This document shows, in pieces, positions 41,611 through 50,438 of a DNA stretch of 64,000 nt; the first letter of the stretch is position 1; every line of letters starts with the position of its first letter. The translations under genes were made by a program, and so were the position numbers. The stretch covers positions 248,001-312,000 of the forward strand of contig NZ_QCXS01000004.1 in the NCBI RefSeq assembly GCF_003260015.1. The letters are read 5' to 3'. A model generated the notes under the pieces. The model worked only from the letters and a program-made list of their open reading frames with translations, was not told the origin of the DNA and did not search any database. This DNA is from Nakamurella deserti (GTDB lineage Bacteria; Actinomycetota; Actinomycetes; Mycobacteriales; Nakamurellaceae).

Positions 41611-42882
41611 TCAGGCGACGCCCACCAGCGGCTGGGGGGATGCCGGGGCACGTCGATGGCGGATGACGCCGGCGAGGTGGGCGGCGTCGCGGGCGATGCC
41701 CGCGAACCGGCCGGATCCCCAGGTGTGCAGCCAGGGCAGCCCCAGGAAGTACAGGCCGGGCACCGCGGTGACGCCGCGGTGGTGGCGTGGATGTCCGGAT
41801 CCGTCGAAGGCCGGCAGGTTGACCCACCGGTAGTCGGCCCGGTAGCCCATCGACCAGATGACCGAGGTGATTCCGGCCGCGGCGAGATCGAGCGATCCGG
41901 GTTCGATCTTCGGTGCCCAGACCGGGGTGTAGCGGGGCTCGGTGGGGGCGTTGATGCCGTTCCGGGCGATCCAGGCGTCGATCGCGTCCTTGATGCCCTC
42001 CATCACCGCATCCGCCCGGTCCAGGCTCGCGCCCAGGGTGGGCGCGAAGGTCGCAGTGCCGTCCCGGATGTCGGTCATCCGACCGTAGAGGGCGACACCG
42101 CGGGTGGCGAAGTCGCGCAGATCGATGTCCCGGCCGCCGTCGCGTCCGGTGACATAGTGGTTGGTCTTGTCCCGCTGGGCGAGACCCTCGGGGTGGTCCT
42201 CGACCGGTCGGTCGTAGTGACCCATGTCGTGCAGCCAGGCGACGCAGTCCCGACCGCGGTAGAACCGCGCCACCCGCGGAGCGCTCCCGACCGCCAGATG
42301 GACCTGCCGGCCTTCCAGCATCAGGTCCTCGGCGATCTGGGCACCTGACTGGCCGGTGCCGACGACGAGGACCGCGCCGGCGGGCAGCAGGCCGGCGTTG
42401 CGGTACCGGCTGGAGTGCAGTTGGTGGAGGCTCGGGTCCAGCCGCTCGGCGATCCGCGGTACGACGGCTTCGTGGTAGCCGCCGGTGGCGATCACCACCC
42501 GTTCACAGGTCAGCGGCCCGTCGGAGGTGCTGAGCAGGAAGCCGCCGCCGGGCCGCTCGGCGAGGCTCGTCACCGCGACGTGCTCGCGGACCGGCGGGGC
42601 GAAGCCCTCGGCGTACCGGAGCAGGAACGTGTGTACGTCGTCGCGCACCATGAACCCGTCGGGGTCGGGACCGTCGTAGGCGTGACCCGGGAGCCGACAC
42701 TGCCAGTTGGGGGTGACCAGCGTGAAGTTGTCCCACCGGCCGGAGCGCCATTCGTGGCCGATGGTCTCCCGCTCGAGAACCACGTGGTCCACGCCGTCCT
42801 GCGTGAGGTGCCAGCTGATCGACAGTCCCGCCTGGCCGCCGCCGATGACGACGACGTCGGTGTGCTCGACCGTTCCGGTCAC
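41611..42882 (-). CDS. MSMEG_0569-family flavoprotein (NitH-like)
   Basis: A 423-residue flavin-containing monooxygenase-like oxidoreductase. It has an FAD motif VVIGGGQAGLSISWHL, an NADPH motif VVGTGQSGAQIAEDL and a C-terminal SMGYRADYRWV segment. In Nit1C clusters this is the flavoprotein that ends the operon, as here; its GTG start overlaps the MSMEG_0570-type gene by 4 bp (GTGA). It could hydroxylate an intermediate made by the nitrilase and radical SAM steps; the chemistry is unknown. Confidence 0.88.
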   Translation of the reverse strand: MTGTVEHTDVVVIGGGQAGLSISWHLTQDGVDHVVLERETIGHEWRSGRWDNFTLVTPNWQCRLPGHAYDGPDPDGFMVRDDVHTFLLRYAEGFAPPVREHVAVTSLAERPGGGFLLSTSDGPLTCERVVIATGGYHEAVVPRIAERLDPSLHQLHSSRYRNAGLLPAGAVLVVGTGQSGAQIAEDLMLEGRQVHLAVGSAPRVARFYRGRDCVAWLHDMGHYDRPVEDHPEGLAQRDKTNHYVTGRDGGRDIDLRDFATRGVALYGRMTDIRDGTATFAPTLGASLDRADAVMEGIKDAIDAWIARNGINAPTEPRYTPVWAPKIEPGSLDLAAAGITSVIWSMGYRADYRWVNLPAFDGSGHPRHHRGVTAVPGLYFLGLPWLHTWGSGRFAGIARDAAHLAGVIRHRRAPASPQPLVGVA

Positions 42883-43184
42883 CGGGTCACCGCCGGCAGC
42901 GCAGGCTTCATCGCCACGACCGTCACCATCGCACTCGCGTCGGCGAAGTGCGCCGCGCGGCGTTCGATGTCGTCGAGGGTCGCCATCGCCGAGGTGCAGG
43001 CGAAGCCGTACCTCGACCGGACACGCTCGGACGCCTCGTGCAGGGCCGCCCGTGAGCGGGCGACGAAGTCGGCCACGGCGTAGTCGGTTCCCGCGGTCAG
43101 GTGGTCGTGCATCACCAGCGACGGGGAATAGCAGTCCTGCAGCCGGCCGTCAGGCCACCGGACCTGCACGTTCATCTCAGGCAT
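42879..43184 (-). CDS. MSMEG_0570-family small nitrogen-starvation protein
   Basis: A 101-residue protein conserved in Nit1C clusters (NitG-like). It begins MPEMNVQVRWPDGRLQDCYSP and contains the family's YFVADF-like DYAVADFVARSR and a central SERVRSRYGFACTSA. No known domain or catalytic motif. ATG 43184 overlaps the nitrilase 3' end by 8 bp. Function unknown; coupling suggests a fixed ratio to the nitrilase. Confidence 0.85.
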   Translation of the reverse strand: MPEMNVQVRWPDGRLQDCYSPSLVMHDHLTAGTDYAVADFVARSRAALHEASERVRSRYGFACTSAMATLDDIERRAAHFADASAMVTVVAMKPALPAVTR

Positions 43185-44043
43185 GGGCCAACTCCGGGGT
43201 CGGGTAGGCGTCGGGGCGGCGGTCGCGCAGGTGGAACATCGCCCGCCGCGCGGTGTCCAGTTCGGCGGCGAGGTCCAGCGTCGCGACGGCGAGACCGGCC
43301 TCGACGCCGGTGTCGGCGCGGATGTCGCCGCCCGGACCGACGATCTTGGCGCCGGCGACGAAGCGCAGGGACCCGAAGTGGCCGGCCTGGTTCGCCGACG
43401 CCCACACCACCTGGTTCTCCAGCGCCCTGGCCGCGTCGAACAGGTCGAACCGCTTCTTCCAGCGGTCCTCGGCGAGATCGGTCGCACCCGCCGTCCGGGC
43501 GGCGGGCCACGCCGACATGCAGGCGATGACCTCGGCGCCGTCCAGGGCCAGCGCCCGGGCGGCCTCCGGAAAAGCCTTGTCGTAGCAGATCATCATGCCC
43601 ATGCGACCGATCGGTGTGTCGAACGCGGTGAAGGCGTCGCCGGCTGCGTAGGCGAGGCTCTCGCCCAACGGTTGGTGGACCTTGCGGTGCACGCCCAGCA
43701 ACCCGTCGCCGGTCACCGCCACGGCGGTGTTGAAGCGTCGGTCGCCGTCCTGCTCGCAGAACCCGAAAGTGAGAGTCAGGTCGCCGGCCATGGTGATGAC
43801 GCGGCCGATCTCGGGACCGTCGAGGGCCAGCGCGGGCGGCAGGGTGCGCCCGGCCACCGGGGTCGCCGCATCACCGCCGGGTCCGCCGAGCGCCGACAGG
43901 TAGCCGCCCAGCGCGGCCTCCGGCAGGACGAGCAAATTACCGCCCGCCGCCCGGGTCTCGGCGATCAACCGCCCGATGGTGGTGTAGGCCTCCTCGAGGT
44001 CCCGGCCGAAGAACGCCGCCGCGGCGGCGATGGTGAGGGTCAT
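43177..44043 (-). CDS. nitC: Nit1C nitrilase, catalytically intact
   Basis: A 288-residue carbon-nitrogen hydrolase of the Nit6803/NitC group. The Glu-Lys-Cys triad is complete: Glu42 in VLPEAALGG, Lys121 in HRKVHQP and Cys153 in MMICYDKAFPE. NitC is the cluster nitrilase shown in cyanotrophic proteobacteria to be induced by cyanide and needed for growth on it. ATG 44043 overlaps the GNAT-AIR-synthase gene by 4 bp. Its natural substrate is still unclear. A paralog with a ruined active site lies at the head of the same cluster. Confidence 0.9.
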   Translation of the reverse strand: MTLTIAAAAAFFGRDLEEAYTTIGRLIAETRAAGGNLLVLPEAALGGYLSALGGPGGDAATPVAGRTLPPALALDGPEIGRVITMAGDLTLTFGFCEQDGDRRFNTAVAVTGDGLLGVHRKVHQPLGESLAYAAGDAFTAFDTPIGRMGMMICYDKAFPEAARALALDGAEVIACMSAWPAARTAGATDLAEDRWKKRFDLFDAARALENQVVWASANQAGHFGSLRFVAGAKIVGPGGDIRADTGVEAGLAVATLDLAAELDTARRAMFHLRDRRPDAYPTPELAHA

Positions 44044-45491
44044 GCGGGTCCCAATCCGGTGAGGGTGGTGACGGCGTCGGTGGTCTCGCCGTCCGGCCAG
44101 CGGAGGCGGACGCCGGGGGCGGCCGTCAGCTCGCCGCAGACGGCGCTGGTGGCCGGACCGGCCGGTGCGACGGGGCGGTCGGCGGCGTCGGTGGTGAGCA
44201 TCGCGAACCCCGGGAAGCAGGTGAGCCAGTCACCGGCGGTGGCGCCGGCGGGTCGCGGTACCGCCGCGACGTCGAGGACGGCGCCGGTGCCGCTGGACTC
44301 GGCGAGCATCCCCAGGGTGCCGACGGCACCGGCCATGCTGACGTCCTTGGCCGCCGCCGGGGCCGTGCGCGCCACGAACGAGGCCATCGTGCGCAGCTCG
44401 GCTGCCGACCGGGTGGACGTCGAGTCCCACTGGGCGCCGGTGTAACCCGGTCGCCAACCCCCGCCGAGATCGGCGGTCACCGTGACCCTGTGCCCGACCC
44501 GGCCGCCGCCGGCCGGGACCGGCCGGTCGGTCCGGCCGAGCGCGGTGACCGACAGGGACGCCGGCACCCCGAACTGGGTGTGTCCGCCCAGCACCGGCAC
44601 GCCCCAGGCCCGGGAGGCGTCCCGCAGCCCGCTGACGATGCGACGGGCGAACGAGGCGTCCCGGGCACCGATCGCGTCGAGCAGCCCGACCGGAGCTGCC
44701 CCCATCGCGGACAGGTCGTTGACGTTGACCAGGACCGCGCACCAACCGGCCCACTCGGGGCTGCGCTCCACCATCGTCGGCAGGATCGCGTCGCACGCGG
44801 CGATGACGTCCGTGCCGGGCACCGGGGCACCGTCGTCGCCGACGAAACCGCCGCCGCCGAGGCCGGTCACGCCGTCGCGGAAGGGTTCCAACACCGACGC
44901 CAGGGCGGCCTTGGTGGCGGACGCGAGCCGCGCGATCCGGTCGATCGGATAGCGCATCTCGACGTGGGGCAGACCGTGCCGGTCCAGGGTGCGGATGGTG
45001 TCCCAGCCCAACCGGCGGAACAGGGTCTCGTTCCGTCCCTGCACCATGGCGTCGAACCGCAGGACGCCGGCGGACTCGGCGGCGGCGCAGGCCGCCCGGA
45101 TCAGCGCCGCACCCACACCGCGGAGCGCCTGTCCGTCCCGGCTGACCACCAGCCGGGAGCCGGCCCACCAACCGATGTCAGGTCCGCGACCGGCGGGAGC
45201 CAACCGGACACCGCCGACGATGTGCCCGCCCGCGCGGGCCACGATGACCACGGTGCGGGGGTCGTCGTCGACGTCGTCCCGGTCGCTGCCGGTGAACAGC
45301 TGCTGACGCTCCACGAAGGCCGCTCGCCGCAGCCGGTGGTAGGCGGCCAGGTCCGCGGCCGTCTCCGCCCGGGACAGCAGGAACGGTGCGGCGGCGGTGG
45401 CGGTGCGCGGCCCGCCGGTGAGCACGCTGACGTCCAGCGGGCCGGCCGTCGGTGTCGTCGGTGGGGCCGGCGTGGTGATCTCGCTGCGCAC
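44040..45491 (-). CDS. GNAT-AIR-synthase fusion (MSMEG_0567 family)
   Basis: A 483-residue two-domain protein. The N-terminal 170 residues form a GNAT acyltransferase (VRLAPAGRG...GVGAALIRAACAAAE); the remainder is a PurM/AIR-synthase-like ATP-binding domain (DGVTGLGGGGFVGDD, KDVSMAGAVGTLGMLAES). In Pseudomonas Nit1C clusters the two parts are separate genes (nitE, nitF); here, as in mycobacterial MSMEG_0567, they are fused. It starts at GTG 45491, one base after the radical SAM stop. ATP-dependent ring closure or amide activation is plausible; no product is known. Confidence 0.88.
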   Translation of the reverse strand: MRSEITTPAPPTTPTAGPLDVSVLTGGPRTATAAAPFLLSRAETAADLAAYHRLRRAAFVERQQLFTGSDRDDVDDDPRTVVIVARAGGHIVGGVRLAPAGRGPDIGWWAGSRLVVSRDGQALRGVGAALIRAACAAAESAGVLRFDAMVQGRNETLFRRLGWDTIRTLDRHGLPHVEMRYPIDRIARLASATKAALASVLEPFRDGVTGLGGGGFVGDDGAPVPGTDVIAACDAILPTMVERSPEWAGWCAVLVNVNDLSAMGAAPVGLLDAIGARDASFARRIVSGLRDASRAWGVPVLGGHTQFGVPASLSVTALGRTDRPVPAGGGRVGHRVTVTADLGGGWRPGYTGAQWDSTSTRSAAELRTMASFVARTAPAAAKDVSMAGAVGTLGMLAESSGTGAVLDVAAVPRPAGATAGDWLTCFPGFAMLTTDAADRPVAPAGPATSAVCGELTAAPGVRLRWPDGETTDAVTTLTGLGPA

Positions 45492-45492
45492 C

Positions 45493-46548
45493 TCAGGCCC
45501 CCACGCTCGACAGCAGGCCGCAGGCGCCGCACGCCGCGCACCCGGCCTTCTGGTCCGCACCGCGCATCCCGGACGACACGAGGAGTGCGCCGACCCGGCG
45601 GCTGACATCCTCGAGGACGTGCGCCCGCGGGGCGGCGGCGCCGTCGGCGGCGGCCAGGGTGCCGGCCAGCGGTCGGAAGGGCACCACGAAGGGATACACG
45701 CCCATCTCGACGAGTTCCCGGGCGGCGGCGACGAGTTCATCGGGGTCCTCGCCGAGGCCGACGAGGAGGTAGGTGGAGACCTGGTTCCGGCCGAACACCC
45801 GGACCGCCTCGCGCCAGGCGGCGCGGTACTCGTCGAGGCTCACCGTGGACTTGCCGGGCATCCAGGCGCGCCGGACGCGCTCGTCCATCGACTCGACGTG
45901 GATGCCGATGGACGACGCCCCCGCTTCGAACAGGTCGGTGAGGGTGGCGAGGTCGCCGGGCGGTTCGCACTGCACCTGGATGGGCAGCTCGGGCACGGCG
46001 GCCTTCACCGCCCGGACGCACCGCGCCAGATGGACCGCGCCGCGGTCCCGGCCGGCGGACGTGCCGGTGGTCATCACCATCTGCCGCACCCCGTCGAGAT
46101 CCACCGCGGCACGAGCCACCTCGGCCAGTTGAGCCGGGGTCTTGACCGCTGTGGTGGCCCCGGCCCGCAGCGACGTCTCGATCGCACAGAACCGGCAGCG
46201 GTCGGCCTCGCCGTAACGCACACAGGTCTGGACGACGGTGGTGGCCAGCACGTCCCGGCCGTGCAGTCGGGCGAGCTTCTCGTAGGGCACGCCGTCGGCG
46301 GTGGACCGGTCGTAGAACCGTGGCCGGTCCACCACCGTGAGATCGAGTCCGGTGTCGTCCCCGTCGTACAGGATGCGGTCGCCGACCACCTGGTACGGGC
46401 TGTCCTGATTGCGCGGGATGGCGGCGTTGAGTCCACCGACGACCACGTGACCGTCGTCGCTGGGACCCGCTCCGGTGCCGCGCTTCACGGGTGCATCGAA
46501 GCGGAAACCCTTAAGGGCCAGATCCACTCGTGTGCTCAGGGACGACAT
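45493..46548 (-). CDS. nitD: Nit1C radical SAM protein (MSMEG_0568 family)
   Basis: A 351-residue radical SAM enzyme of the Nit1C group. The cluster-binding cysteines are Cys109, Cys118 and Cys121, spaced CX8CX2C instead of the textbook CX3CX2C, within CVRYGEADRCRFC. A second Cys motif, CX2CX2C at 337-343 near the C-terminus, may hold an extra iron-sulfur cluster. The barrel motifs TTGTSAGRDRG and YLLVGLGEDPDEL are present. It follows the MSMEG_0572-type gene by 10 bp. The reaction is unknown. Confidence 0.9.
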   Translation of the reverse strand: MSSLSTRVDLALKGFRFDAPVKRGTGAGPSDDGHVVVGGLNAAIPRNQDSPYQVVGDRILYDGDDTGLDLTVVDRPRFYDRSTADGVPYEKLARLHGRDVLATTVVQTCVRYGEADRCRFCAIETSLRAGATTAVKTPAQLAEVARAAVDLDGVRQMVMTTGTSAGRDRGAVHLARCVRAVKAAVPELPIQVQCEPPGDLATLTDLFEAGASSIGIHVESMDERVRRAWMPGKSTVSLDEYRAAWREAVRVFGRNQVSTYLLVGLGEDPDELVAAARELVEMGVYPFVVPFRPLAGTLAAADGAAAPRAHVLEDVSRRVGALLVSSGMRGADQKAGCAACGACGLLSSVGA

Positions 46549-46558
46549 CGGGGCCCCG

Positions 46559-47080
46559 TCAGAGGTTGTAGGTCGAGTTGATGATGGCGCCCTTGCGCGC
46601 GAAGTGGATCAGCGCGTCCTGGACGTCCAACGGGTGGCACGGGATGACTCCGGGGATGAGGTCCTCCTCGCGCAGTCCGTGCAACGACAGCCCGAAACGG
46701 CAGCAGAACACCGTGCCGCCCTCGGCGATGAACGTCTCCAACGAGTTGTTGATGTTCTGCTCGCCGGGGAACGCCGAATCGCCGGTCGTCGGGAAACCGC
46801 GGGTCGCCATGCAGTTCATCGAGCCCGGACCGTAGAAGTACAGGACCGACTCGAAGCCCTTCCGCAACGCGCGGGTCGCCTGCAGGATGGCCACGAAGCT
46901 GACCGACGATTCGTGCGCGATGCCGTGCACCAGCGTCAGGTAGGACTCACCCTCCTCGGCCTGGTAGTCGGGGAAGATCTTGGTACTGCCGTAGATGGTG
47001 CTGCCCTTCGGCAGTGACGGATGCGGGATCTCGGCGACGGACTTCGCGATGTTGGCGGTGATGGACTCGTCGAACGGCAT
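46559..47080 (-). CDS. MSMEG_0572/Sll0783-family nitrogen-starvation protein
   Basis: A 173-residue conserved Nit1C protein (NitB-like), annotated in cyanobacteria as nitrogen-starvation induced. It has a DsrE-like look: VLYFYGPGSMNCMATRGFP and GTVFCCRFGLSLHGLREEDL hold Cys residues that could carry a thiol intermediate. Initiated at ATG 47080. It lies between the amidohydrolase and radical SAM genes. Confidence 0.87.
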   Translation of the reverse strand: MPFDESITANIAKSVAEIPHPSLPKGSTIYGSTKIFPDYQAEEGESYLTLVHGIAHESSVSFVAILQATRALRKGFESVLYFYGPGSMNCMATRGFPTTGDSAFPGEQNINNSLETFIAEGGTVFCCRFGLSLHGLREEDLIPGVIPCHPLDVQDALIHFARKGAIINSTYNL

Positions 47081-47190
47081 TTCCGGGGTCCTCTCGAGTG
47101 CGGTGCGGGGATGTGGGTCGGCGGTGCGGTACAGCGTCTCGACCGCGCTGTCGAGGGACCGGGGGAGGTGGCGGCTCAGCCACCGGCGGG

Positions 47191-48018
47191 TCAGGCGTAC
47201 AGGCGGTGGAAGTTGTCGTAGCGCATCATCTGGGCGAGTTCACCGTCAGCGACGGCGTTGTCGAGCCGCGCGAGTTCACCGGCGTGGTCGCCCCAGGGCT
47301 CGTCGCTGGCGAACAGGACACGGTCGTGACCCAGGCCGTGACGGTCGATCTCGGCGGCGAGCCACCGGGGCGCGAACCCGATCGCCCAGCTGGTGTCGGT
47401 GTAGACCTGCTTGCCGGCACGGATCCAGTCGAAGAACCGTCCGGAGATGAGCTTGATGTGGCCGCTCATCCCGCCGCCCAGGTGGACCAGGTGGATCTTC
47501 ACGTCGTCGCCGTAGCGGTCGACGAGCGTTCCCACTCTGTCGATGTCGGAGGCGGCCCCGGGGGAGGTGTGGATGTGGACGACGAGATCGTGGCTGCGGG
47601 CGGTGTCGAAGATGCGGGTCAGCTGCGGCTGGGAGGCCGGGTCGTCGGCGCCCCCGCCGAGCAGGAAGCTCGTCTTGAGCGCTTTGACGCCCGCCTCACC
47701 GGCGAGGGCCAGCGCCGTGTCGTTGAGAGCGGCGTCCTGTTCGCGGGGGGACACCCAGAGCCCGCAGACGACGCGTTCGTCCTTGGTGGCGGCTTCGACG
47801 ACGAGTTCGTTCAGGGCGAACGACGACGCCGGGTCGGGGACCCCGTAGTTCGGGATGACCAACGCCCGCTCGGTCCGCTCGCGCGCGAGATCGTCCATGA
47901 GCTCAGAGATTTCGGCCCTGGCGTTGACATCCGGGTTGACGGGGGGGCCGCCGTAGAACGAGTGAGCGGGCAGTCTCCCCAGGTGCCGGTGGGCATCGGC
48001 CAGCGGTGTGGGGGGCAT
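47191..48018 (-). CDS. Amidohydrolase-2-family metal-dependent hydrolase
   Basis: A 275-residue TIM-barrel amidohydrolase of the amidohydrolase-2/ACMSD-like group. Metal ligands are visible as DAHRHLG near the N-terminus (HxH), His in VVHIHTSPG, the His pair region KIHLVHLGG and the late Asp in FASDEPWGDH. These enzymes hydrolyse C-N bonds or decarboxylate. It is not a core Nit1C gene, but it is co-directional and sits inside this cluster, so it may act on the nitrilase or radical SAM product. ATG 48018 is the best start. Confidence 0.83.
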   Translation of the reverse strand: MPPTPLADAHRHLGRLPAHSFYGGPPVNPDVNARAEISELMDDLARERTERALVIPNYGVPDPASSFALNELVVEAATKDERVVCGLWVSPREQDAALNDTALALAGEAGVKALKTSFLLGGGADDPASQPQLTRIFDTARSHDLVVHIHTSPGAASDIDRVGTLVDRYGDDVKIHLVHLGGGMSGHIKLISGRFFDWIRAGKQVYTDTSWAIGFAPRWLAAEIDRHGLGHDRVLFASDEPWGDHAGELARLDNAVADGELAQMMRYDNFHRLYA

Positions 48019-48113
48019 GCGTCCAGTAAGCGGGCGCAGTGTGTCGGGTGGGTTCAGTCGTGAACAACACCAGATGTCGGGACCGCCGAATCGTGTCACG
48101 CGATCGCAACACG

Positions 48114-49232
48114 TCAGCTCCCGGCGGGCCCGTCGAGCAACCGTCGGTACAGCGTGACGTGGGCGGCGGCGGCCGAGTCCCACGAGAGGGACCGCGCCAG
48201 TCGGCGACCCGCTTCCGCCGGCGGCGGGAGCGTCGTGGGGTCGAGGACGTCGGCCAGGGCGGCGGCGATGGCCGGGACGTCGGCGGCGAATCGCACGGCG
48301 TCGCCGAACACCTCGCGGAGCACCGGCAGATCTCGGGCGACCACCGGCACACCGGCTGCCAGAGCCTCCATCGCGGCGAGCCCGAAGCCCTCCTTGGTGG
48401 AGACGAAGGGGAACGCGGCCGCCGCGGCGACCAGGCTCGGCAGCGTGTCATCGTCGACGACGCCCAGCTGCACCGGCTCGACCCCGAGTGCGGCGGCCCG
48501 CCGGTCGAAGGTGGCGCGGTAGTCCCGGTAGTCGAAGAGCGTCTCGCCGCCGGCGATGACCAGCGCGACGTCGGGGAAGCGGTCGCGCACCGCGGCGAAG
48601 GCCTCCAACAGGTCCAGGGTGCCCTTGCGTGGCTCGATGCCGCCCACCGCCAGCACGTAGCGGCCGAGCCGGTTCCTCCACCGCCGGCGGCCGTCGAGAC
48701 CGGCGGCACCGGAGGCCTTCTCGAAGCGGGCGGCGTCGACGCCGTTCGGGATCACGGCGGCGGTGCGGTGCCAGCCCGCGGCGACCTCCGCAGCGACGGC
48801 GGCCGACACGCAGACCAGTGCGCGTGGCCGGGAGACGGCCCGGTCGTGACAGGCGACGAGCTCCGGGGTGCTGAACGTGTCCAGGTGGTGCACCGTGCGG
48901 ACGCAGTCGTCCACGGCGTTGGCGCTGATGCAGTCCTGGGCGTGGACGACGTCGTAGTCGTCCGGCCGCATCGCCGCTCGCATCACCGCGATGGAGCGGG
49001 CGATGCGGGCACCGACGGATTCGTCGTCCACCGGCGGGAAGTCGACGATGCGGATTCCGACCGCCGGGTCCACCTGCCGGAAGAACGCGCGGTCGCCGCC
49101 GCGGCCGAGGGTCCAGACGTCGACCGCCGTCCCGGCGCGGACGAGCGCCTCGGCGAGCGCGAGCGTGTGCACGACACCACCGCGGGGCTTGGTGGAATAG
49201 GTCATCAGGGCGACCCGCAACGGTGGCGTCAC
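48114..49232 (-). CDS. MSMEG_0565-family glycosyltransferase
   Basis: A 372-residue GT4-type (GT-B fold) glycosyltransferase. The N-terminal sugar-acceptor lobe starts LRVALMTYSTKPRGGVVHTL; the C-terminal donor lobe has FVSTKEGFGLAAMEALAAGVPVVARDLPVLREV, with the EX7E motif typical of retaining enzymes. GTG 49232 overlaps the upstream pseudo-nitrilase stop by 4 bp. Its membership in MSMEG_0565-0572 clusters suggests that the cluster makes a glycosylated small molecule, beyond simple nitrogen assimilation; that is inference. Confidence 0.87.
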   Translation of the reverse strand: MTPPLRVALMTYSTKPRGGVVHTLALAEALVRAGTAVDVWTLGRGGDRAFFRQVDPAVGIRIVDFPPVDDESVGARIARSIAVMRAAMRPDDYDVVHAQDCISANAVDDCVRTVHHLDTFSTPELVACHDRAVSRPRALVCVSAAVAAEVAAGWHRTAAVIPNGVDAARFEKASGAAGLDGRRRWRNRLGRYVLAVGGIEPRKGTLDLLEAFAAVRDRFPDVALVIAGGETLFDYRDYRATFDRRAAALGVEPVQLGVVDDDTLPSLVAAAAAFPFVSTKEGFGLAAMEALAAGVPVVARDLPVLREVFGDAVRFAADVPAIAAALADVLDPTTLPPPAEAGRRLARSLSWDSAAAAHVTLYRRLLDGPAGS

Positions 49233-50083
49233 CTGCTCTCGGCCAGGTAGGTGTCCGGCCGTCGCTCAGCGAGGTGGTGCAGCACCCGCCGCGCCCGGGT
49301 GACCTCGGCGTGGACGTCGAGGTCGGTGAGGGCGATGCCACCCTTCGTCCAGGTGCGGGCGAGTACGTCACCGCCGGGACCCACCACCTTGGCCTGACCG
49401 AGGAAGCGCAGCCCGCCGAGGACGCCGGTCTGGTTGGCCGAGACGACGACGACCTGGTTCTCGGCGGCGCGGGCGCAGTCGTAGAGGTCGAACAACCGTG
49501 ACTGCCGGTCCTGCGGGATCCGGGCGGCGCGGTCGGTGACACTGGCCGGCCATGCGGACAGACAGCCGATGATCTCGGCGCCGCTCCGGGCCAGGGTGCG
49601 GGCCGACTCGGGGAACGTCTTGTCGTAGTCGATGAGCATCCCCATCCGCCCGACCGGAGTGTCGAAAGCGGTGAAGGCATCACCCGCCGCGTAGGCCAAC
49701 GACTCACCTGCCGGCTGGTGGACCTTGCGGTGACGACCGAGAATCCCGTCTCCGCTGACACACCAGGCGGCGTTGTAGCGGGTGCCGGCGGCGAGCTCGG
49801 TGAAGCCGAAACACACGGTCATCGGACCGGCCATCGCCACGACCGCCGCGAGTTCCGGCGCATCGAACGCGAGAGCAGGGGGCAGCTCGTCAGGGTCGGG
49901 ATGGCGTAGATCGGGCAGGTAACCACCCAGGGTGGCGTCGGGAAGCACGAGCAGATCGACCTGCCGGCGGCGGGCGTCCTCGACGATTCCGGCCACCTTC
50001 ACCAGGGCTCGTGCGACATCCCGGCCGAAGTGCCCGGCGACCGCGGCCAACCGCAGCGGACGACCGGCCACAGGTACGCGCAT
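49229..50083 (-). CDS. Nitrilase-fold pseudoenzyme (catalytic Glu and Cys replaced)
   Basis: A 284-residue carbon-nitrogen hydrolase paralog of the cluster nitrilase, near-identical over the central HRKVHQPxGESLAYAAGD region. The triad is altered: Asp49 in VLPDATLGG replaces Glu, Lys120 is kept, and Asp152 in MLIDYDKTFPE replaces the nucleophilic Cys. Without Cys it cannot do standard nitrilase chemistry. ATG 50083 is chosen because AGGG lies 8 bp upstream; GTG 50107 is an alternative. It leads the operon and overlaps the glycosyltransferase gene. A structural or regulatory partner of the active nitrilase is plausible, as such enzymes oligomerise. Confidence 0.87.
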   Translation of the reverse strand: MRVPVAGRPLRLAAVAGHFGRDVARALVKVAGIVEDARRRQVDLLVLPDATLGGYLPDLRHPDPDELPPALAFDAPELAAVVAMAGPMTVCFGFTELAAGTRYNAAWCVSGDGILGRHRKVHQPAGESLAYAAGDAFTAFDTPVGRMGMLIDYDKTFPESARTLARSGAEIIGCLSAWPASVTDRAARIPQDRQSRLFDLYDCARAAENQVVVVSANQTGVLGGLRFLGQAKVVGPGGDVLARTWTKGGIALTDLDVHAEVTRARRVLHHLAERRPDTYLAESR

Positions 50084-50438
50084 GTCGGCCACCCTAAGGG
50101 ATCCCACGAATCCGCTGACCGACCCGCAGGTGGCCCGGAACAGCCGGCGGCGGGCCTCTGGTCCGGACCGACGCCGCGACGGACGCCGATCGTCACAGCG
50201 TCATCCATCGGCAGCCGACTCTGCGCACATCACGCGTCCGAGCACTGTGAGAAGTAGTTGACGCTGCTGTCACCAACGGTGAGTGAGCACGAAACGAGCG
50301 GTACCCACCATTCGAGGTGTCCGCCCCGGGACTGGCACCTGGCCAGCGTCCTCGGATCGCCGCCGCCTCCGGACGAATCATCCCCGGCGACGTCCAGCGC
50401 TGGACCACCGGCCACTCCCTGACGAAGGAACAACGACC
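50084..50438. other. Divergent promoter region
   Basis: About 355 bp between the Nit1C-like cluster and the exported redox operon. A TTGACG hexamer at 50258-50263 is a possible -35 box for the plus-strand operon, but no convincing -10 follows at 17 bp. No small gene is supported. Confidence 0.4.

Follow-up and report, generated by a model that had tools for sequence, protein, structure and literature searches.

A 64,000-nucleotide stretch of DNA from Nakamurella deserti (contig NZ_QCXS01000004.1, positions 248,001 to 312,000; called the window here) encodes a protein that is built like a nitrilase and has Asp at two of its three catalytic positions. What is new here, judged by the sequences at hand, is that this protein belongs to a conserved clade of putative D-K-D (Asp-Lys-Asp) pseudo-nitrilases. 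No inactive carbon-nitrogen (CN) hydrolase of this kind was found in the open-access literature, judged by titles and abstract openings. The gene, named DD for the Asp/Asp form of the CN hydrolase, occupies 49229..50083 of the minus strand and shares a cluster with a Glu-Lys-Cys paralogue, named ACT (43177..44043, same strand). What would such a protein be doing next to an active enzyme? We lean, with some reserve, towards DD being a non-hydrolytic accessory protein and a standing part of the actinobacterial Nit1C-like (gpr) pathway.

A preliminary description of this DNA had reported that DD keeps Lys120 and has Asp for both the catalytic Glu (Asp49) and the nucleophilic Cys (Asp152), and that an intact copy lies about 5 kb away in the same cluster. 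Re-reading the codons confirmed this active/inactive pair. Numbered from the ATG at 50083 (a GTG at 50107 is another possible start), DD has GAC for Asp49, AAG for Lys120, GAG for the second glutamate, Glu127, and GAC for Asp152, and it ends at 49229 after 284 residues; ACT has GAG for Glu42 and TGC for Cys153, and Lys121 and Glu128 are also present. The two proteins, 284-288 residues long, are 55% identical and both match PF00795 (E 6.9e-30 and 1.5e-32). DD scores 104.7 bits against a gathering score of 23.2, which makes it a member of the CN-hydrolase superfamily, but its Asp-Lys-Asp is not the Glu-Lys-Cys triad of a competent CN hydrolase.

The alpha-beta-beta-alpha fold of the superfamily is intact in the AlphaFold model of DD, predicted with a mean local distance difference test score (pLDDT) of 91.6 (88.8 for the ACT model). 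Its best fold match is the PH0642 amidase 6ypa (Z 35.2, root-mean-square deviation 1.6 A over 254 residues), the next is N-carbamoylputrescine amidohydrolase (Z 34.0), and the filament nitrilase 8uxu (Z 33.3) and Nit6803 (Z 32.4) come lower. In fold and length, and in having the catalytic Lys and the second Glu, DD agrees with the PH0642 amidase (1j31, 6ypa) and with N-carbamoylputrescine amidohydrolase (5h8i), and it shares its pocket shell with ACT; the difference from the superfamily lies in the catalytic Cys and Glu, for which DD has Asp at both sites, the Glu site being rarely Gly, His or Tyr. Nitrilases that form spirals need longer C-termini. The mixed spiral oligomers that had been imagined for the pair find no support in proteins of this size, which in fold come closest to the short amidases of PH0642 type (Z about 35); the short length of the modelled proteins argues against filaments, and the fold scores alone do not decide. 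The other suggested role, binding of the product by DD, is possible.

Conservation and origin of the Asp/Asp form

Is the Asp/Asp form a peculiarity of one genome? When the GTDB species collection was scanned with a DD profile, 476 stretches were confirmed, and the best 80 of these 476, the named-genome loci, are all actinobacterial by record title. In an even sample of 397 genomes from the window's order, 64 genomes match; 62 of them have DD and ACT together, and in the other two (G049, G057) the match is solely to a degenerate third copy. Across the 63 DD copies of these 62 genomes, Lys120 and Asp152 never vary (63/63 each). Position 49 is Asp in 61 copies, Gly in one (G474) and His in one (G540), and position 127 is Glu in 61 and Val in two (G628, G648). 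ACT shows Glu-Lys-Glu-Cys in 64/64 copies. The named-genome loci add Tyr at position 49 in two Aeromicrobium loci and Asp at position 127 in G429. The invariant core of DD is therefore Lys120-Asp152, not Asp49, which weighs against a simple Asp/Asp catalytic dyad. Given its conservation across the copies of the order, the Asp/Asp pattern is not a matter of chance. The 110 rows of CN-hydrolase open reading frames, in which genes of overlapping loci recur, gave 97 DKDE, 2 YKDE, 1 DKDD and 100 EKCE, the last including outgroup and other-class proteins and not cluster copies alone; 10 rows were set aside (4 fragments, 4 degenerate third copies, L117, an E-K-C protein with DD as best hit, and L096, with an odd 5' part).

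The possibility that the Asp/Asp form might recur as a clade, raised in the preliminary description, was borne out by the alignment and the tree. With 66 proteins thinned at 80% identity (28 DD rows and 26 ACT rows), DD forms one side of one branch with support 100/98. Its neighbours, and nearest relatives, are four standalone proteins with Glu-Lys-Cys (L115, L117, L121, L123; support 95/88), which come from outside the window's class and around which no clear operon was seen in the open reading frame lists by eye, a family search not having been made. ACT is not resolved as a single clade; the outgroups are long and the root is unsure. Position 152 is Cys in these four sister proteins and in every one of the 26 ACT rows, so an active ancestor or duplicate was probably converted once. 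Seven residues are DD's own in the tree, or nearly so: Asp152, Asp49, Arg185, Leu197, Gln230, Lys247 and Glu273. The last five are fixed or nearly fixed in DD, the other proteins of the tree seldom or never have them, and they suggest a gained function. Gln194 and Leu228 of DD also occur in the sister proteins, which places these two changes on the ACT side, and Tyr201 is fixed in DD yet present in 5/26 ACT rows.

The degenerate third CN hydrolase occurs in four genomes of one genus (L016, L017, L030, L031; matches start at 1501). Its Lys120-Glu127 stretch is shortened or altered, two copies have Ser or Gly for Cys, and it nests in the ACT lineage of the tree; for two of the four (L183, L184), the surrounding 15 kb contained no other cluster gene that could be found.

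How strictly is DD guarded? Pairwise identity over the 62 genomes averages 0.671 for DD and 0.662 for ACT, with DD the more similar in 1007/1891 pairs, and in a sample of 12 genomes, likewise not picked by likeness to DD, the values are 0.691 and 0.677; the two proteins are about equally conserved. An earlier statement that DD is more conserved than ACT (0.718 vs 0.646) was withdrawn, the set having been picked by likeness to DD. The column comparison of DD and ACT covers 71 of the 80 loci; in the other nine one copy was missing because of de-duplication, a contig end or an ACT located apart. From these 71 loci, pairs with a DD identity of at least 0.8 and a synonymous divergence (dS) of 0.15-1.5 gave a median ratio of nonsynonymous to synonymous divergence (dN/dS, Nei-Gojobori, 285 non-independent pairs) of 0.106 for DD and 0.101 for ACT. 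By these sequence measures purifying selection on DD is close to that on ACT. The loss of two of three catalytic side chains could also be read as a decaying pseudogene or an assembly error, but a dN/dS near the ACT value, the unvarying Lys120 and Asp152, and a single clade that extends beyond the window's class to G429 refute that reading and leave it a negligible probability. The related worry, that the Asp/Asp form might occur only here and under relaxed selection, fails on the same data and on its presence in 62/62 genomes. Since selection guards DD about as strictly as ACT, DD probably has a job other than cutting.

Mechanism and candidate partners

DD would hydrolyse neither nitriles nor amides by the family mechanism, because there is no thiol at the nucleophile position and Gly, His or Tyr are tolerated at position 49. 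In the favoured reading, Asp152 would pair with Lys120 in the old active site, a contact carried over from the family, and form a fixed charged pocket that may either stabilise the fold or hold a pathway metabolite. DD would then act in trans as an accessory subunit, binding an intermediate for the next enzyme or regulating or scaffolding a partner, for which the active nitrilase, the glycosyltransferase (GT) encoded next to DD and the radical-SAM module are the candidates. In pseudoenzyme partnerships in general, an inactive paralogue is kept under selection beside an active one, and DD is likewise an inactive-type paralogue kept with an active one.

Could the old site instead have found a new reaction? 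A neofunctionalised enzyme would use an Asp152-Lys120-Glu127 site for a different step on a pathway intermediate, for instance the transfer of an acyl or glycosyl group with Asp as the nucleophile, or a reaction assisted by a metal. The invariance of Asp152 and Lys120 in 63 copies would fit, as would the conservation of most of the active-site shell and the new conserved charged residues Arg185 and Lys247; on the other hand, Gly, His and Tyr at position 49 and Val at position 127 (2/63) are not what one expects of a catalytic base or a metal ligand, and Cys96 and Trp214, invariant in ACT, are free to vary in DD. We regard such an enzyme as rather unlikely. A scaffold rebuilt into a novel active or sensing site, in which a buried Lys120-Asp152 pair, Glu127 and the new Arg185 and Lys247 would together handle a pathway intermediate without a thiol and hand it to the GT, seems quite improbable.

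The evidence on partners starts with co-occurrence. DD without ACT, or ACT without DD, was found in 0/397 order genomes at a threshold of 1e-70 and with at most 6 candidates scored per genome. In the 62 genomes DD matches at 9.2e-130 or better and ACT at 2.5e-116 to 1.6e-94, and an ACT-only genome would show at the threshold, apart from cut genes such as that of G560, a 57% complete genome in which ACT is cut by a contig end and falls below threshold and DD was not seen. The radical SAM family is present in 68/397 genomes, 60 of them among the 62 DD genomes; the two that lack it (G490, G540) are fragmented assemblies. The GT family is present in 69/397, including all 62 DD genomes. Outside the window's class, G429 has the DD and ACT pair, the GT and most of the cluster.

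This pairing could mean that ACT depends on DD as an obligate subunit without catalysis of its own: the two would assemble into mixed dimers or tetramers by way of the conserved dimer face of CN hydrolases, and DD would tune the stability or specificity of ACT. Such a hetero-oligomer is a special case of the accessory role. The two-way co-occurrence in 62/62 order genomes argues for it, and so does its persistence in Rhodococcoides trifolii, where the pair is unlinked: ACT and the flavin-dependent oxidoreductase (FMO) gene sit on another contig (L179), DD is still with other cluster genes (L067), and DD and ACT each lie inside, not at the ends of, their contigs. The differences between DD and ACT conserved on both sides, including Gln194/Trp195 and Leu197/Arg198, fall in helix 193-209 of the model, which we take to be part of the superfamily dimer face. 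But Gln194 is also found in the sister E-K-C proteins, so this is an ACT-side change, and ACT and FMO can leave the cluster with DD staying behind, as in L067. Moreover, the partial correlation of divergence over 68 loci is -0.07 for DD-ACT against 0.72 for ACT-FMO. The hetero-oligomer is thus possible, if doubtful.

The co-divergence analysis, with the other cluster genes partialled out, is a weak test, run on loci selected by their similarity to DD; its remaining values for DD are 0.37 with MSMEG_0572, 0.34 with the radical SAM protein, 0.25 with FMO, 0.15 with the GNAT/AIR protein and 0.13 with the GT. ACT and FMO behave as a separable module, being together on the other R. trifolii contig and highly correlated in divergence. 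The idea that DD lives without ACT, which came from L042 and L067, was rejected, ACT being located elsewhere in both genomes. In Kitasatospora (end of L180, start of L042) and in G569 (end of L175, start of L177), cluster genes are close to contig ends with a stretch in common that carries MSMEG_0572 and is identical over at least 80 bases in the former and 516 bases in the latter; either MSMEG_0572 is duplicated there or the two contigs overlap in the assembly.

Adjacency points to another partner. DD might bind an acceptor metabolite and present it to the downstream MSMEG_0565-family GT, which lies directly downstream of 62/63 DD copies in the order genomes and, in the window, overlaps DD by 4 bases, its GTG start and the DD stop codon running together in GTGA. 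In G156 and G177, two ACT-type clusters from outside the window's class, neither the GT nor DD is present in the stretches fetched, as this idea would predict. Against it, 7/69 GT-positive genomes have no DD, DD has no adjacent GT in G569 and L110, and the DD-GT correlation is low. We consider a dedicated GT partnership quite unlikely. The lines of evidence disagree: co-occurrence favours ACT, adjacency favours the GT, and co-divergence lends ACT no special support.

What, then, weighs against the accessory role as we have drawn it? The Lys120-Asp152 salt bridge is read across from the family, and the identity of DD with MSMEG_0566 was assigned by gene order alone. In the genome searches, no more than 6 candidates were scored for each genome. 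The dN/dS of DD is lower than that of ACT in just 102/285 pairs, and co-divergence specific to DD and ACT was not found over the 68 loci. Nearly every DD copy retains the active-site shell, with Lys120, His122, Glu127 and Trp178 among its residues, and this is equally to be expected if the pocket had been turned to a new catalytic use.

The cluster, its relatives and its expression

All genes of the cluster lie on the minus strand. The GT (48114..49232) follows DD and scores 458.8 bits with TIGR04047 (cut-off 259.85). Next comes an amidohydrolase-2 protein (47191..48018; PF04909, E 5.3e-15), for which the ATG at 48018 is assumed, the open frame reaching 48183. It is followed by an MSMEG_0572/Sll0783 family protein resembling NitB (46559..47080; TIGR04044, 252.3 bits, cut-off 109.85), an MSMEG_0568 family radical SAM protein resembling NitD (45493..46548; TIGR04043, 508.9 bits, cut-off 303.7) and an MSMEG_0567 fusion of GNAT and AIR-synthase-like parts, resembling NitE and NitF (44040..45740; TIGR04050 495.9 and TIGR04045 99.7 bits, both over cut-off), whose true start is probably inside this frame because the first matched residue is 122. 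Beyond ACT lie a small MSMEG_0570 family protein resembling NitG (42879..43184, with ATG at 43184 or 43175; TIGR04042, 126.6 bits, cut-off 79.85) and the NitH-like MSMEG_0569 FMO (41611..42882; TIGR04046, 656.3 bits, cut-off 498.35). All cluster genes except the amidohydrolase and the two CN hydrolases thus pass a curated NCBIfam cut-off, and TIGR04042-04046 and TIGR04050 are over cut-off in one stretch, bringing the radical SAM, GNAT, AIR-like, NitB-, NitG- and NitH-like families together; TIGR04049 (AIR_rel_sll0787) stays below its cut-off in the window (175.1 vs 321.3).

Is this then a Nit1C cluster, as the preliminary description had it? The name holds for the counterparts of NitB, NitD, NitE, NitF, NitG and NitH, which the window shares with canonical Nit1C, but not for the subfamily-1 nitrilase (NitC/Nit6803), in whose place the window has two short CN hydrolases. 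With the Nit6803 model TIGR04048 (cut-off 502.6), DD scores 30.7 and ACT 28.7 bits, so neither belongs to that family, and the cluster is therefore not canonical Nit1C. A search of the window's genome for a Nit6803 nitrilase gave no match at E <= 1e-20, and a Nit6803 nitrilase replacing ACT/DD was over cut-off in 0/21 genomes, of which 11 had the radical SAM protein or the GT without DD; three of the 21 (G476, G508, G177) have weaker matches to the model. Another type of cluster, in G034, G542 and G524 (L171/L172/L173), has a radical SAM protein 42-47% identical and a GT 39-42% identical; in these genomes and in G466 there is no ACT/DD match and no Nit6803 nitrilase over cut-off. Nit1C has been described as strictly tied to subfamily-1 nitrilases (Podar 2005, PMC1199592) and, in its canonical form in Pseudomonas, as tied to cyanide assimilation (PMC11049912).

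By gene content the window cluster is an actinobacterial variant of Nit1C, the gpr operon of Mycobacterium smegmatis. All eight gene families of that operon (MSMEG_0565-0572) are also in the window, which differs in its extra amidohydrolase and in having DD-GT placed first. In several loci of Mycolicibacterium and Mycobacterium the genes run 0572, ACT, 0570, FMO, rSAM, 0567, DD, GT, and by this order DD corresponds to MSMEG_0566 and ACT to MSMEG_0571. DD does lead the cluster in the window, as had been described, but not at most loci: DD and the GT come last among the cluster genes found in 78/80 named-genome loci, so the window cluster (41611-50107) is the rearranged one. Of the two exceptions, L070 ends with DD near the contig end and L110 has DD alone. 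The latter comes from a metagenome-assembled genome of Lacisediminihabitans, in which DD lies near the contig start (L110:223-1206) and the GT was not found in the following 9 kb. Large plasmids of Rhodococcus (NZ_CP113952.1, NZ_CP088909.1, NZ_AP026692.1, NZ_CP034156.1) carry a gene like DD by identity only (72-76%), and each of these four records has a second match, perhaps ACT.

The gpr operon of M. smegmatis is under GlnR control (PMC4222082, PMC6039565). MSMEG_0566 is up 2.96-fold in nitrogen limitation (PMC4617892), and in nitrogen-starved cells it is 8.94-fold higher in the wild type than in a glnR deletion, the corresponding values for MSMEG_0571 and MSMEG_0565 being 48.04 and 4.33 (PMC4222082). 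The induction figures for MSMEG_0566 indicate that the gene is expressed together with its operon. In the window, a loose GlnR-like motif has 29 matches against a mean of 37.8 expected, which is the chance level. The exact motif has two matches, one of them at 48095-48110, within the 95-base gap (48019-48113) between the GT and the amidohydrolase, a place from which the second half of the cluster could be transcribed by a promoter of its own; there is no exact match to the motif ahead of DD.

MSMEG_0566 has been called a putative aliphatic amidase with a possible help in nitrogen assimilation (PMC6039565), a name also used in PMC4617892 and PMC4222082. The D-K-D site argues against this amidase role, and DD calls into question both the aliphatic amidase label and the generic 'carbon-nitrogen hydrolase family protein' labels. 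The product of the actinobacterial gpr/Nit1C version is not named in the available sections of PMC4222082, PMC6039565 and PMC11049912. Many soil actinobacteria keep, beside the normal enzyme that cuts nitriles or amides, a sister protein in which two catalytic residues have turned into Asp, and since this conserved D-K-D pseudo-nitrilase travels with ACT, the actinobacterial version of the pathway would need a second, probably non-hydrolytic, CN-hydrolase subunit.

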